A stretch of DNA of 64,000 bases from Levilactobacillus yonginensis (GTDB taxonomy: Bacteria; Bacillota; Bacilli; Lactobacillales; Lactobacillaceae), in assembly GCF_003946265.1 (NCBI RefSeq), contig NZ_RHNO01000014.1, forward strand, positions 1 through 64,000. Reading direction: 5' to 3'. Numbering within the stretch: position 1 is the first letter of the stretch; every line of letters starts with the position of its first letter. Below, in pieces: positions 10,434-49,038 of the stretch. The translations under genes were made by a program, and so were the position numbers. Below the pieces are notes generated by a model. That model saw only the letters and a list, made by a program, of their open reading frames with translations, was not told the DNA's origin and made no database searches.

Positions 10434-11801
10434 ATGAAAATTAAAGCACCAGTAACAAAGAATGATCGCATTGACGTTACCATTACCGACCTGACTTATC
10501 AGGGGATGGGTGTGGCTAAAGTCGATGACTTCCCACTGTTCATCGAAAACGCCTTACCAGGCGAAGAGATTACGATCTTAGTAACCAAGGTTGCCAAGAG
10601 CTACGGGTTTGCCCGGGCCCTTTCATGGCAGAGCGAATCTGCTGACCGGGTTACAGACGTTGACAAGACGTACCGTCAGACCGGGATTGCGCCATTACAA
10701 CACTTGGCTTACCCAGCCCAATTGAAGTTCAAGCAACATCAAATTGCAGAGCTCTTTAAGAAGAATCATCAGGAAGTAGAAGTTGCGCCAACACTGGGGA
10801 TGGACAATCCTACGCAGTACCGGAACAAGGCACAGGTTCCCGTGCGGATGATCAAGGGGCAACTGGAAACTGGTTTTTACCGGCAACACAGTCACGACCT
10901 TATTCCATTGACGGACTTTTACATTCAGGACCCCGCTATCGATGAAGCCATCGTTAAGGTTCGTGACTTACTTCGTCAATTTGAAATTCCTGCCTACAAT
11001 GAAATTAGTGACAAGGGTGTTATCCGGAACATCATGGTTCGTCGCGGCTACTACAGCCACGAAATGATGATTGTCCTGATTAGTCGTACCCAAAAGCTGC
11101 CTAGTCAGGAACAATTGGTCGACCAAATCCAAAAGGCTTTACCTGAGGTCAAGAGTATCGTCTTAAACGTTAACGCTAAGAAGACGAACGTGATCATGGG
11201 TAACGTGACCCGGACCTTGTACGGTAAGCCAACGATTGAAGATACCTTGATGGGCTTAACGTTTGCCATTTCGGCACGTTCCTTCTACCAAGTTAATCCA
11301 CAACAGACTGAAAAGCTGTACCAGATGGCCATTGATAAGGCTGGCCTGACTGGTGAAGAGACTGTCATCGATGCTTACTGTGGTATCGGGACGATTTCCC
11401 TGGCTTTGGCTAAGCATGCCAAGCAAGTGCTGGGGGTCGATGTGGTTGCTGAAGCGATTGAAGATGCTAAGGTCAACGCCCAGAAGAATCACTTGGCTAA
11501 CGTTACCTTTGCTGTGGCTAAGGCGGAAACGCAAATGGCCCAATGGCAAGAGGATGGCGTGAAGCCGGACGTTGTCGTTGTTGACCCACCACGTAAAGGT
11601 CTGGCCGAAAGCTTGATTGATTCCACCGCTGAGATGGGACCTAAGAAGGTTGTTTACGTGAGCTGTAACCCAGCCACGCTGGTCCGCGATGTGGCACGGT
11701 TCGAAGAACTGGGCTACGCTATCGATGGTCCAATCCAACCGGTTGACCAATTCCCACAAACGCCACACGTTGAAAGTGTGACTGTTTTAGTAAAGAAATA
11801 G
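10434..11801 (+). CDS. rlmCD: 23S rRNA (uracil-5-)-methyltransferase, RlmCD/RumA type
   Basis: SAM-dependent enzyme making 5-methyluridine in 23S rRNA. An N-terminal TRAM RNA-binding domain (~1-65) precedes a Rossmann methyltransferase domain with DAYCGIGTISLALA. The catalytic cysteine is C411 in VSCNPATL. Length 455 is normal. The iron-sulfur cysteines that many RumA relatives carry before the LQH motif are absent here (GIAPLQHL). A single B. subtilis-type enzyme can modify both U747 and U1939; which is modified here cannot be told from sequence. Confidence 0.93.
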   Translation: MKIKAPVTKNDRIDVTITDLTYQGMGVAKVDDFPLFIENALPGEEITILVTKVAKSYGFARALSWQSESADRVTDVDKTYRQTGIAPLQHLAYPAQLKFKQHQIAELFKKNHQEVEVAPTLGMDNPTQYRNKAQVPVRMIKGQLETGFYRQHSHDLIPLTDFYIQDPAIDEAIVKVRDLLRQFEIPAYNEISDKGVIRNIMVRRGYYSHEMMIVLISRTQKLPSQEQLVDQIQKALPEVKSIVLNVNAKKTNVIMGNVTRTLYGKPTIEDTLMGLTFAISARSFYQVNPQQTEKLYQMAIDKAGLTGEETVIDAYCGIGTISLALAKHAKQVLGVDVVAEAIEDAKVNAQKNHLANVTFAVAKAETQMAQWQEDGVKPDVVVVDPPRKGLAESLIDSTAEMGPKKVVYVSCNPATLVRDVARFEELGYAIDGPIQPVDQFPQTPHVESVTVLVKK

Positions 11802-11816
11802 CGTCATGTTCACTGG

Positions 11817-11995
11817 AGAGTGGGACAGAAGGCGGTTAGTCAATGAGCATTAACGTCGATAGACGAATAATCCCGGTTTTGGATTGTTTGTCTATCGAGG
11901 TTAAGCGGAGTTGACTGCCTTTTGTCGCACGTTTCCGCAATATACGTTCGAAGCACACGAAGGGTCTGAGACTTTTGTCCTAGACCTTTTTTTTG
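11817..11995 (+). ncRNA. Candidate structured RNA, copy A
   Basis: First of three related elements in the window (also 31563 and 48772). From AGAGTGGGAC it has an outer helix AGTCAA (11838-11843) with TTGACT (11911-11916), enclosing the conserved GAGCATTAACGTCG. An inner hairpin CGATAGAC (11857-11864) pairs with GTCTATCG (11890-11897). Then come the conserved GGTTAAGCGGA and GCACGTTTC, and a terminator at 11963-11994 ending in eight Ts. Both helices differ from those of copy C at positions on both sides, so the fold is kept. It follows rlmCD directly with no terminator between them, so it could be a 3'-UTR product or have its own weak promoter. It may match an Rfam family I cannot name with certainty. 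Confidence 0.75.
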
Positions 11996-12063
11996 TTGCT
12001 TCGGCAAACGGGGGCCACCCCGAAAACTGAAGGTGGGTGTTTCAACCTGACAATAATTTTAGT

Positions 12064-30073: not shown

Positions 30074-31429
30074 ATGTTAAAACAATTTGAGGCGCATTTT
30101 AAAGATTTAGGATATACAGAACCCACCGCTATCCAGACGGCCGTCTATGATGCAATGGTCGGGGATAAGAATGTGTTGGGGCTTGCGCCAACCGGTTCGG
30201 GGAAGACGGTGGCGTTTACGTTGCCAGCCCTGGCTAACCTGTTACCGGGAGATGGGATTCAGCTGATTGTCTTAGAACCTTCTCAAGAGTTGGCTATCCA
30301 GACCAGCCGCGTTATTCGGGACTGGGCTAAACTATTGGATTTGAAGGTCGCAGCCTTAACGGGTGGCGCTAATGTGAAACGGCAAACGGAACGGTTGAAG
30401 AAACGGCCAGAAATCATTGTGGGGACTCCTGGTCGGGTGTTGAACCTGGTCAGTGACCGGAAACTGAAGTTACATTTGGTTTCCCTCATGATTGTTGATG
30501 AAGCGGATGACTTGTTAACGGGTGATACGTTGGATACGGTCCGTTCAATTGCTCAGGCTGCGCCAGCGGACGTTCAACTTGGCTTCTTCTCCGCAACCGA
30601 TACACCAATTCTTCACGAACTGGACCAATGGTTTGGCCAGACCGTTGAACGAATTGATGTGCGGGACCAAGACGATACACAGGGACAAGTTCACCATGGC
30701 ATGTTAGAAGTGGGAATGGGCAAGCGTGATCAGATGCTCAAGCGGCTGTTGGCAATGCCTAATTTCCGGGCGCTGGTCTTCTTCAAACAGGCGAACACTT
30801 TACGGAAAACGGCAACGCGGTTTTACCATGACCACGTGTCTGCAGCCAGTCTGACGAGTGATTTACGTCAGGTCCAACGGGAAAAAGCCTTACAGGACTT
30901 TCGACTGGGGCGTATCAAGTTGTTGTTGACGACCGATGTGGCGGCACGGGGATTAGACATTCCGAAACTGCCAGCCGTTATTAACTACGATCTCCCAACT
31001 TCGGTCAACGAATACGTCCACCGAGTCGGCCGGACTGGCCGGATGGGTGAACCAGGCCAAGTAATTAGTCTGGGGGATGACCATGATTTACGGGATTTAA
31101 AGAAGCTCTTGAAAGAAACTGATTATGAGTTAGAACCCGTTTACTTCAGTGGGCGGACATTGACCACTGAACGCCCAGTAGCAACGGCGAAACCGGTGGA
31201 AGAAACCCCAGTAGCGACAACTTCTACGGAGGCTAAGCAGGCAACCACGGTTGAGACGACAGCGACGACAACTGGTCAAGCACAGCCGGCCAAGCGAAAA
31301 CCCCGTAAGGCAGCTGCGGCCAAGGTGGAAACACCGAACCCAACTAAGAAAAAGAAACACAAGAACCGGCATACCAAGAACAAAGGGATGCGGAAAAAGT
31401 GGCGTGATCAAGACGCCCAAGATAAGTAG
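30074..31429 (+). CDS. cshB: DEAD-box RNA helicase (CshB-like)
   Basis: 451 residues. Motif I APTGSGKT (~36-43), motif II given as DEAD (VDEADDLL), SAT as FSATD and motif VI HRVGRTGRMG are all present. After ~370 comes a Thr/Ala/Pro-rich linker and a very basic Lys/Arg tail, typical for RNA-anchoring ends of CshB-type helicases. Probably helps ribosome assembly or RNA decay, especially in the cold. The symbol is by similarity of layout, so subtype is not certain. Confidence 0.87.
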   Translation: MLKQFEAHFKDLGYTEPTAIQTAVYDAMVGDKNVLGLAPTGSGKTVAFTLPALANLLPGDGIQLIVLEPSQELAIQTSRVIRDWAKLLDLKVAALTGGANVKRQTERLKKRPEIIVGTPGRVLNLVSDRKLKLHLVSLMIVDEADDLLTGDTLDTVRSIAQAAPADVQLGFFSATDTPILHELDQWFGQTVERIDVRDQDDTQGQVHHGMLEVGMGKRDQMLKRLLAMPNFRALVFFKQANTLRKTATRFYHDHVSAASLTSDLRQVQREKALQDFRLGRIKLLLTTDVAARGLDIPKLPAVINYDLPTSVNEYVHRVGRTGRMGEPGQVISLGDDHDLRDLKKLLKETDYELEPVYFSGRTLTTERPVATAKPVEETPVATTSTEAKQATTVETTATTTGQAQPAKRKPRKAAAAKVETPNPTKKKKHKNRHTKNKGMRKKWRDQDAQDK

Positions 31430-31479: not shown

Positions 31480-31552
31480 GGCCCTATAGCACAACTGGAT
31501 AGGGCACTCGCCTCCTAAGCGAATGATCCCGGTTCGAGTCCGGGTGGGGCCA
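31480..31552 (+). tRNA. tRNA-Arg (anticodon CCT)
   Basis: 73-base cloverleaf. Acceptor stem GGCCCTA with TGGGGCC, anticodon loop CTCCTAA (anticodon CCT, reading AGG), T stem CCCGG/CCGGG with loop TTCGAGT, discriminator A. CCA is not encoded. The D stem (GCAC/GGGC) has one mismatch and the top anticodon-stem pair is C-A. The third structured RNA begins 10 bases downstream and may be cotranscribed. Confidence 0.93.
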
Positions 31553-31562
31553 ATTAATATAC

Positions 31563-31718
31563 AGAGTGCGACTGCGGGCGGTTAGCTGGCGAGCATTAAC
31601 GTCGTTAGCGTAGCGACCCCGAACTTGGGTCGTTGGGCTAACGGGGTTAAGCGGAACCAGCTGCCCACAGGTGCACGTTTCAGCAACGGTCACGGGAAAA
31701 TTCCCGTGACCGTTTTTG
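31563..31718 (+). ncRNA. Candidate structured RNA, copy C
   Basis: Same plan as the elements at 11817 and 48772 but diverged in its helices while keeping pairing. Outer helix AGCTGG (31584-31589) with CCAGCT (31657-31662); inner hairpin CGTTAGC (31603-31609) with GCTAACG (31637-31643), extended by CGACCC/GGGTCG. Conserved single-stranded blocks GAGCATTAACGTCG, GGTTAAGCGGA and GCACGTTTC are intact. It ends in a strong terminator (ACGGTCACGGGAA with its complement, 31686-31713, then TTTTT). It starts 10 bases after tRNA-Arg. Confidence 0.8.
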
Positions 31719-46728: not shown

Positions 46729-48753
46729 GTGCGTGCGATTTTATCTGGATTACATCATAAGAAAAATAAACAAGAACTCGAACTTGAATTGATCGACGTC
46801 CCAGAACCATTCGATGACTTAGCGGTCACCTTCTTAGAAAAGCAGACACAGGCTTCCATCACGTTCCCCATCAGCAAGGTCGTCAGTGCTGAAGTGGTTC
46901 GAATTCGCGTGGATGCCAACGACTTGCAGTTTTCCCAGGAAGGCCAAAGTGAGTTTAGCTGGGAGTTGTACCTTAATCTACAGCAACAACATACTCGGGG
47001 CCTTATTCAGGTGGAAAGTGAATACCTGAGTGACCGTCATCAACTATCCTTGACGAGTTTCTATCAAGTGAACAGTGATGCCAACGGGATGGCGTTATTC
47101 AACATGCACACGCAACAGGCCAAATCTGACTTCACCATCAATGCAATCAACTTGCAAAATGATCAGTTGCAGGTCATTGGCCGCAGTCGCTTGAACAACC
47201 AACCCATTGAAAATCAACGGTTGGTTTTGAAGAATACGCAGCAGGATAGTTCCGCAGAGTGGCCCATCACGAAGATGGGGATTCATGGACTGTTCACTGC
47301 TGCTATTCCGTTATCTGATTTAGCGGCAAACACGACGCAGCAACTGTTTATCCGGTCGACCGTTGACGGTGAGGACTTGGAACAGCGGGTCGTATTGGCT
47401 AAGTCACTTGCTGGTCAGGTCACGCAAGCCATTACGGGCAGTCACCGCTTAGTAATCTTAGAGAAGCGGTATGACAACGGGATTCGGGTGCAGGAAACAG
47501 CTGCCCCTACGTTACCACAGCGTTTGGCTAACATCCCCGGTAAAGTGGGGGGCGCTACTCGGCTGTTGTCGATGTTGATGGATAAGGTGAACTTATTCCG
47601 GATGCGGCGGCTGTTCAAGCGTGGTCACCGACCATACGACCAACCAACGATTATCTTTGAAAGTTTTGGTGGGCGTCAGGTCAGTGACTCACCATACGCA
47701 ATCTACCAATTGTTTACGCAACTCTATCCTGGATTTAACTTTGTCTGGTCGATCGACCGGGTGCAGAAGAAATTCTGTAAGGAAAATGGGATTCCGTTCG
47801 TTATTCGTCGGACCTCGAAGTGGGTAAGAACGCTGGAAAAGTCCAGTTTTTGGATTAGTAATGCCCGTTTTCCATCCTGGGTACGGAAGCCCAATTATGT
47901 GACGTACATTCAGACTTGGCACGGAACGCCGTTGAAAAAATTGGGACTGGATATTGAGAACGTGTCGATGCCTGGAACCACCACGGCCAAGTATCACGCC
48001 AACTTTGTACGTGAGGCCAACCGGTGGGATGCCTTGGTCTCGCCTAACGACTATTCCACGAAGATCTTTCGGTCGGCCTTTGGATTCAACAACCAGATTC
48101 TTAAGGTTGGTTATCCACGGAACGACGAACTGATCAACAGTACGCCAGACGATGTGGTGGCTTTGAAGGAGCAACTGGGAATTCCACTGGATAAGAAGGT
48201 CGTGCTCTACGCACCAACTTATCGGGATAACCAGTTTGCTGAGAAGGGGAAATACACGTTTGAACTGCCATTCTCCTTGGATGAATTCCGGGAACGATTT
48301 GGTCAGGATGCGGTCTTGGTTCTGCGGATGCACTACTTGATCAGTAATGCGTTGGATATCAGTGGGTACGAAGGGGTCGTCTTTGACTTCTCCAACCATC
48401 CCAACATTTCTGACCTTTACTTAGTCAGTGACATGTTGATCACCGACTACTCGTCCGTGTTCTTCGACTTCGCTTACCTCAAGCGACCAATCCTGTTCTA
48501 CCCGTACGACTATCACATGTACAAAGATGAACTGCGGGGCTTCTACCTCGACTACGAGAAGGACTTGCCGGGTGAAATTGCACACGACGAAAACCAGTTG
48601 CTCGACTTGGTAGCTGCCAAGCTGCAGACACCAGACATGAGTGGGGATACCAAATTCATGGACTTCTACCGTCGTTTCTGTGCTATCGATGATGGGTTAA
48701 GTTCCTTGAAGATTGTGAACTACGTAGTTCAACAGATTGAAAAGAATAGCTAA
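46729..48753 (+). CDS. tagF: CDP-glycerol glycerophosphotransferase (TagF/TarF-like)
   Basis: Membrane-associated enzyme adding glycerol phosphate from CDP-glycerol to the wall teichoic acid chain. 674 residues: the catalytic domain occupies ~300-674, with the family blocks YIQTWHGTPLKKLG (His of HGT), VGYPRNDELI, LYAPTYRDNQ and ITDYSSVFFDFAY. The N-terminal ~290 residues are beta-rich, an extension found in long TagF proteins. GTG start after TAAGGAG. Its end carries the promoter of structured RNA copy B. Confidence 0.92.
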   Translation: MRAILSGLHHKKNKQELELELIDVPEPFDDLAVTFLEKQTQASITFPISKVVSAEVVRIRVDANDLQFSQEGQSEFSWELYLNLQQQHTRGLIQVESEYLSDRHQLSLTSFYQVNSDANGMALFNMHTQQAKSDFTINAINLQNDQLQVIGRSRLNNQPIENQRLVLKNTQQDSSAEWPITKMGIHGLFTAAIPLSDLAANTTQQLFIRSTVDGEDLEQRVVLAKSLAGQVTQAITGSHRLVILEKRYDNGIRVQETAAPTLPQRLANIPGKVGGATRLLSMLMDKVNLFRMRRLFKRGHRPYDQPTIIFESFGGRQVSDSPYAIYQLFTQLYPGFNFVWSIDRVQKKFCKENGIPFVIRRTSKWVRTLEKSSFWISNARFPSWVRKPNYVTYIQTWHGTPLKKLGLDIENVSMPGTTTAKYHANFVREANRWDALVSPNDYSTKIFRSAFGFNNQILKVGYPRNDELINSTPDDVVALKEQLGIPLDKKVVLYAPTYRDNQFAEKGKYTFELPFSLDEFRERFGQDAVLVLRMHYLISNALDISGYEGVVFDFSNHPNISDLYLVSDMLITDYSSVFFDFAYLKRPILFYPYDYHMYKDELRGFYLDYEKDLPGEIAHDENQLLDLVAAKLQTPDMSGDTKFMDFYRRFCAIDDGLSSLKIVNYVVQQIEKNS

Positions 48754-48771: not shown

Positions 48772-48948
48772 AGAGTGGGACCAAAGGCGATTAGTCAGTG
48801 AGCATTAACGTCGATAGGCGAATAATCCTGGTCTTGGATTGTTTGTCTATCGGGGTTAAGCGGAGCTGACTGCCTTTGGTCGCACGTTTCAGCTATATAC
48901 GTTCGGAGCGCAAAATGGGTCAAGGACTTTTGTCCTTGACCCATTTCT
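48772..48948 (+). ncRNA. Candidate structured RNA, copy B
   Basis: Close to copy A: outer helix AGTCAG (48793-48798) with CTGACT, and inner hairpin CGATAGGC with GTCTATCG (G-U instead of the A-U of copy A). Conserved blocks GAGCATTAACGTCG, GGTTAAGCGGA and GGTCGCACGTTTC. The terminator AATGGGTCAAGGAC-TTTT-GTCCTTGACCCATT (48914-48945) differs wholly from those of copies A and C. It has a fair promoter of its own. Confidence 0.78.
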
Positions 48949-49038
48949 TATCTTTCGGTTTACTTTGCTGAAGAGGTGCTTACTGGTTGATTGTCTTTAG
49001 TCTCACGCTACTTCTTCAGATGCCATTGGTCGCAGACC

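Follow-up and report, generated by a model that had tools for sequence, protein, structure and literature searches.

A folded, terminator-bearing repeat often placed directly behind stop codons in Lactobacillaceae and other Bacilli, and its possible role as a portable 3′-UTR cassette

The window (the whole 64,000-nt stretch of DNA that was analysed) was found to carry three sense copies of a folded element, each made up of a 123-nt long-hairpin core followed by an intrinsic terminator. Judged from comparisons of sequence, the fold is clearly kept by selection. The copies may represent class-wide dispersed 3′-end RNA cassettes that act in cis as a generic, portable 3′-UTR, a reading to which we give about an even chance. 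Such a cassette would shield the end of the mRNA and, with its terminator, close the transcript; it would act in cis as RNA, not as a gene-specific switch, and it would multiply within chromosomes and decay there.

The sequence-only reading had described three plus-strand elements sharing conserved blocks. Exact matches to GAGCATTAACGTCG were found at 11845, 31591 and 48800 and to GGTTAAGCGGA at 11899, 31645 and 48854, and the third block, GCACGTTTC, is present in copies A, B and C, all on the plus strand, as claimed. When three mismatches were permitted, GAGCATTAACGTCG gave seven matches against a chance expectation of 4.4, the exact ones being those three only. The outer and inner helices quoted for the three copies were verified in the sequence, and the extent given for copy A (11817-11995) agrees with the repeated unit, which spans 11816-11996 in the alignment of other copies and runs from just 5′ of AGAGTG into the T run of the terminator. 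A search of the window with a covariance model (E<=1e-4) detected A, B and C as sense copies and no further one; the core of copy A scores 134.2 bits with model R1 (see below). The copies and their neighbours are arranged as follows:

10434..11801, plus strand: host gene of copy A, TRAM + uracil-5-methyltransferase of the RlmD/TrmA type (Pfam)
11817..11935, plus strand: structured core of copy A (AGAGTG...CACGTTTC), 15 nt 3′ of the stop codon of 10434-11801
11936..11960, plus strand: linker of copy A, common to recent copies (alignment of copies)
11961..11995, plus strand: intrinsic terminator of copy A (GGTCTGAGACTTTTGTCCTAGACC + T run), belonging to the repeated unit
30074..31429, plus strand: DEAD-box helicase, preceding the tRNA gene and copy B (Pfam)
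31563..31681, plus strand: structured core of copy B, 10 nt 3′ of the tRNA gene 31480-31552
31687..31717, plus strand: terminator of copy B, unlike those of A and C in sequence (by-eye reading)
46729..48753, plus strand: host gene of copy C, CDP-glycerol:poly(glycerophosphate) glycerophosphotransferase (Pfam)
48772..48890, plus strand: structured core of copy C, 18 nt 3′ of the stop codon of 46729-48753
48914..48949, plus strand: terminator of copy C (sequence reading)

The folding energies of copies A, B and C lie far below those of shuffled sequences (z -11.0, -6.7 and -8.4, respectively). The outer helix of the hairpin (AGAGUG.GAC..GGC / GCC..GUC.CAC) is longer than had been recognised, reaching GGGAC..GUC and GUG/CAC, and a 5′ bulge, GGUU (GAUU in copy C), lies between helices. 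The mid helix, AGUCAA/UUGACU in copy A, is followed by an internal loop. The UUAAC and GUUAA blocks were found to pair with each other in a helix, GC-A-UUAAC / GUUAA-GC, that the earlier reading had missed, and the inner hairpin at the tip varies among copies. The outer, mid and inner helices thus vary between copies yet remain paired, and the letters of the internal loops are almost constant; this constancy is partly by choice in the 19 copies collected from the source genome, because those letters had selected them.

It had been claimed that paired changes show selection on the fold, a claim meant to stand or fall with the alignment of more copies. When 70 Lactobacillaceae copies were aligned, standard pairs filled 93.2% of paired cells, compared with 67.7% in shuffled and at most 43.9% in slid controls, and double-sided changes number 796, against 226.5 in shuffles, and are seen in 45 of 48 pairs, including 14 of the 16 pairs of the outer helix. 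When copies from other Bacilli were included (62 rows, 59 of them distinct and 21 from other families), 88.9% of cells were paired (slid controls, at most 43.2%), with 865 double changes versus 252.5 in controls. Fitting to a model biases both alignments towards its structure; a model-free MAFFT alignment of the 19 copies from the source genome showed the same trend, with double changes in 23 of 48 pairs. At pairs with a Watson-Crick consensus, G·U outnumbers A·C by 150 to 35 (p 3.7e-18), and by 25 to 8 in the MAFFT alignment. Selection therefore sees the sense strand as a single strand, and the covariation and this strand bias together uphold the earlier claim. RNA is the simplest reading of the bias, with single-stranded DNA as the alternative; when DNA is single-stranded, G·T is likewise milder than A·C, so that strand bias alone cannot separate the two.

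Several letters were conserved across families; a column was counted when one letter filled at least 75% of the 41 lactobacillus rows and also of the 21 rows from other families, the copies having been selected by model and not by letters. The conserved columns are C, G, TAG, AGC, A, a loop T, G, C, GA and CTG, with a further G close to the 3′ end, and the pattern in the internal loops can be written C-G..TAG ... AGC..A ... G-C.GA ... CTG. Of the 27 unpaired columns 8 are conserved, and of the 96 paired columns 10; the majority of the conserved letters lie in or beside internal loops, and one T of the terminal loop is conserved also. Such loops would be the seat of a protein or of a fixed 3D motif, and a common protein probably binds the conserved ones.

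The genome from which the window comes (G000; 2,693,691 bases, or 2.69 Mb, in 63 contigs) contains 19 matches to an exact two-block pattern and none to a reversed control pattern. A covariance model, R1, built from those 19 copies gave 72 matches in the same genome (E<=0.001), of which 27 represent the opposite strand of the near-palindrome, leaving 45 sense copies. The nearest other copy shows 97% identity to the unit of copy A over 11816-11992. A terminator core is common to 15 of the 45 copies of this genome and to 10 of the 30 copies of a second genome, G007. The terminator loop reads GAC-TTTT-GTC in 13 source-genome and eight G007 copies and GAC-AAAA-GTC in two and one, respectively, in units otherwise alike; the letters of the terminator outer stem vary from site to site in both genomes, with complementarity kept.

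Two further sequences were seen around the copies. A sub-family carries a conserved tail, AGAAGCTGCCAGG... (L208, L211 and L045; contigs C1, C19 and C56 of the source genome, downstream of copies), in which the tail and the 3′ half of the element stand in tandem, without the 5′ half. A foreign sequence, CCTACGTTTAGTCAAGCTCTG..., lies directly 3′ of the terminator hairpin in three source-genome copies (L003, L008 and L017), all at contig ends (the starts of C2, C13 and C62), and also behind the terminator hairpin in the G007 copies L256 and L260, altered in one of them; it is perhaps an IS, or an IS remnant, targeting these terminators.

Model R1 matched 32 of 34 other species of the genus, and none of 23 genomes from other families of the order. 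The covariance search of the Lactobacillaceae that had been proposed revealed the element in 143 of 301 genomes, the source genome included, and in 23 of 40 genera, counts that are a lower bound under strict filters and with few candidates scored per genome. At least 110 stretches carried the element in a name-labelled scan, and the matches listed include Levilactobacillus, Lactiplantibacillus, Furfurilactobacillus, Lacticaseibacillus, Ligilactobacillus, Paucilactobacillus and three Lactobacillus sp. assemblies. This range suggests that the window comes from Levilactobacillus and so from the class Bacilli. In a sample of the class Bacilli, R1 matched three of 398 genomes, again with the source genome counted; R2, trained on 70 Lactobacillaceae copies only, matched 12, from four families besides its own; and R3, which added copies from nine of those genomes to the R2 training set, matched 46 genomes, in 18 of 146 genera. 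A phylum sample yielded the element in three of 388 genomes, all three in the class Bacilli. In the other families the element is again multi-copy, often head-to-tail at a spacing of ~123 nt (G538, G630, G487 and G568), and head-to-tail tandem copies also occur in some lactobacilli (L107, L136, L143 and L166).

Within the genus, two near-complete genomes, G015 and G021, gave no R1 match; most others have dozens. Elsewhere in the class, copies L308, L309 and L318 (G527 and G709) have in common a longer, almost identical downstream stretch, TTGATTCCCAGCGCACCCATTC..., and several near-equal scores within one genome mark it as a larger dispersed repeat. In L310 (G717 C1:485729, from another family), and less clearly in L330, the element was seen by eye between the arms of one apparent terminator, AAAAGAGGTCGGGACA ... 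TGTCTCAACCTCTTTT, in L310 as if placed in its loop. The AAAGCGGAA..GGAGCTGGACA form of the element resembles what we take to be a repeat common in Bacillaceae.

Of the copies examined, more than half abut a stop codon. The stop codon of an ORF of >=100 codons lies within 30 nt upstream of 25 of 45 source-genome, 19 of 30 G007 and 54 of 102 named copies, compared with 2 of 42, 0 of 29 and 2 of 102 in a mirrored control, and many copies start at the stop itself (taa followed by GAGTG, tag by AGTG). Within 120 nt the proportions are 28/45 versus 13/42, 20/30 versus 18/29 and 62/102 versus 37/102, a smaller contrast, perhaps because many downstream genes converge. At other-family loci, which are partly orthologous or from one genome and so not all independent, a stop (ORFs of >=80 codons) was present within 30 nt at 12 of 34 against 0 of 34 control positions, and within 120 nt at 16 against 6. 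The placement has exceptions: no ORF of >=100 codons ends in the 120 nt before 17 of the 45 source-genome copies, 10 of the 45 have a left neighbour on the opposite strand, and copy B follows a tRNA gene, not a stop codon. A terminator-like hairpin occurs within 110 nt downstream of 28/45 source-genome, 17/30 G007 and 49/104 named copies (controls 4/45, 4/30 and 18/105), leaving 17/45, 13/30 and 55/104 without a recognised terminator. Copies facing each other exist (G007 C1; L100); such pairs were discarded as proof that each gene has a copy of its own, as in each of the two pairs checked only one copy abuts an ORF. The host proteins are unrelated, as judged from Pfam for the window genes and from C-terminal sequences for others, and a gene-specific regulon was rejected on this ground.

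Comparison of related species revealed that the sites turn over. No element was found behind the methyltransferase gene of copy A in any of 20 related species; a plain terminator-like hairpin (by eye) occupies the site instead, the model detecting no element in the loci examined, so that copy A is most simply a gain in its own lineage. Of 18 G007 sites sought in the related species G009, 17 were located and their states, whether from gain or from loss, were read by eye. The element is absent from eight, with a plain hairpin or terminator in its place at L053, L256, L258, L260, L261, L265 and L269 and less clearly at L253; it is shortened or a remnant at five (L254, L262, L264, L266 and L267), and full length or nearly so at four (L255, L259, L263 and L268). 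Copies decay through internal deletion. No obvious target-site duplication was seen by eye at the 17 sites, in species that differ by ~8% in the gene compared. At the four full-length sites, the changed pairs comprise 13 that are double-changed and paired, 8 wobbles and 22 that are broken or gapped, L259 alone accounting for 14 of these. The double changes at kept sites could also have come from replacement by another copy; the evidence from shared sites is mixed, and selection on the fold after insertion is not proven by it.

Unrelated hosts and changing sites fit a generic effect better than gene-specific control. They are also what would be expected of a selfish, non-autonomous miniature mobile DNA of REPIN-like or MITE-like type, whose fold would serve mobilisation as single-stranded DNA and whose 3′ position would be a harmless place to insert. 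This is the most serious rival, possible although less probable than the cassette, and the high copy number, the 97% identity of the nearest copy over the unit, the differing sites with internal-deletion decay, the head-to-tail tandems and the mixed evidence for selection after insertion all speak for it. However, the stop codons are abutted more tightly than harmless insertion would lead one to expect, and the sites resemble terminator replacement, with no target duplication noticed by eye. The outer arms vary with compensation (the 14 of 16 double-changed pairs above), so the fixed terminal inverted repeats of a MITE are lacking. The Y1 (HUH) transposase domain PF01797 is missing in 7 of 20 genomes and present in 13, the source genome among them, RAYT and IS200/IS605 types being counted together; four Y1-free genomes (G002, G005, G016 and G032) hold 43-61 model matches, antisense echoes included, and a RAYT/Y1 mobiliser as a requirement was therefore rejected. 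Nor were copies found on mobile DNA: the window unit gave no match among the plasmids or phages searched, the exact two-block pattern none in viral contigs, two other forms of the element none in plasmids and one other form none in phages.

A class-wide retroposon-like element was also considered, in which a folded 3′-UTR with its terminator, running from the stop codon to where the transcript ends, would be copied via RNA into the 3′ ends of other genes, replacing their terminators, as a bacterial counterpart of SINEs whose loops bind a common protein. This reading fits a unit that ends in a T run, abuts stops, is under sense-strand selection and replaces terminators; we nevertheless regard it as unlikely. 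The earlier proposal was of a trans-acting small RNA or 3′-UTR regulator with several genomic copies. Its structured RNA, its multiple copies and its frequent 3′-UTR position have stood. Small RNAs processed out of 3′-UTRs to act in trans would account for a discrete folded RNA that carries a terminator of its own and has many copies per genome, but appear very improbable: no common sequence was seen by eye in the 60 nt upstream of the 45 copies, the hosts are unrelated, the sites turn over between species, Rfam gave no match, and the cross-family letters lie mostly in or beside internal loops within a long duplex. We hold it equally improbable that ordinary terminators were homogenised by gene conversion or reshuffled by recombination between repeats; the shared terminator core (15/45 and 10/30 copies) is in keeping with this, but a plain terminator needs no 123-nt duplex with cross-family loop letters, and the sites differ by an entire core. 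The cis-acting cassette remains the reading that we prefer.

Other candidate functions were set aside. An anti-terminator switch was suggested by the ability of the 5′ arm GGGACAAAAG to pair with CUUUUGUCCC of recent terminators; by eye, no such pairing was found with other outer arms (L034 and L026). Three-frame stops (TTAG..TGA..TAA) were dropped, as copy B loses one frame (CGA) and the pattern is missing in Bacillus-type copies. K-turn and integron attC were compared with the element by eye; the one likeness to attC is that of GTTAAGC to the attC core GTTRRRY.

Should the element protect mRNA ends or close them, part of the 3′-UTRs of a lactobacillus would be set by one cassette passing from gene to gene; related species would differ by which genes bear it, and lactobacilli would offer a test of how 3′-UTRs evolve by repeated RNA modules. 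Should it be no more than a selfish repeat, the machinery that copies it would be worth finding. In either case, a strongly covarying fold with matches in 46 of 398 class genomes, and dozens in many lactobacilli, has yet no match in Rfam 15. The Rfam search that the sequence-only reading had proposed returned, at gathering score, only a tRNA for the window and nothing for 11 further loci, and copy A at E<=10 gave only matches far under the cut-off.

Dispersed folded repeats are known as a kind (PMC2267715, PMC3446304, as described in the parts covered here), and the element, being multi-copy, mainly intergenic and of common fold, falls among dispersed stem-loop repeats of SLS type. The stem-loop families of Petrillo et al. 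2008, including Efa-1 (163 bp), Sta-1, Bhal-1 and Bcr1, are likewise repeated, with a predicted common fold and many intergenic members in several Firmicutes; they were catalogued per species, with L. johnsonii the sole Lactobacillus in the text covered (PMC2267715). What appears to be new, with Efa-1, Sta-1 and Bhal-1 compared by description only, is a core shared between families, together with placement against stop codons and a unit that carries its own terminator. The bcr1-bcr18 repeats of B. cereus are described as multi-copy and intergenic, about half of them transcribed and often in UTRs, with bcr1-3 termed MITE-like and bcr10 and bcr18 predicted to be RNA elements (excerpts of PMC3446304); bcr1, specific to the B. 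cereus group by the title of a paper cited there, is likened to the element by description only. REP sequences of 20-40 bp (PMC3733652), with GTAG or CGTC tags and a RAYT transposase (PMC3116915, PMC3733652), are, like REPINs, dispersed palindromic extragenic repeats in the sections covered. The element differs from them in its 123-nt core and its other conserved letters, with no 20-40 bp GTAG/CGTC palindrome, and in occurring in genomes without any Y1 transposase.

BOX and RUP of S. pneumoniae are likewise small interspersed repeats, of a Lactobacillales genome (PMC3049150, in part). As a 3′-UTR module, the element also resembles the ftnA 3′-UTR of S. aureus, which alters mRNA half-life jointly with RNase III but belongs to one gene, the expression of which is lowered (PMC9093591, passages covered). 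The string GAGTGGGACAGAA is counted once in that paper, with no occurrence at a word start in the main text, and GGTTAAGCGGA lies within a primer for Listeria 23S rRNA (PMC8289798, excerpt).
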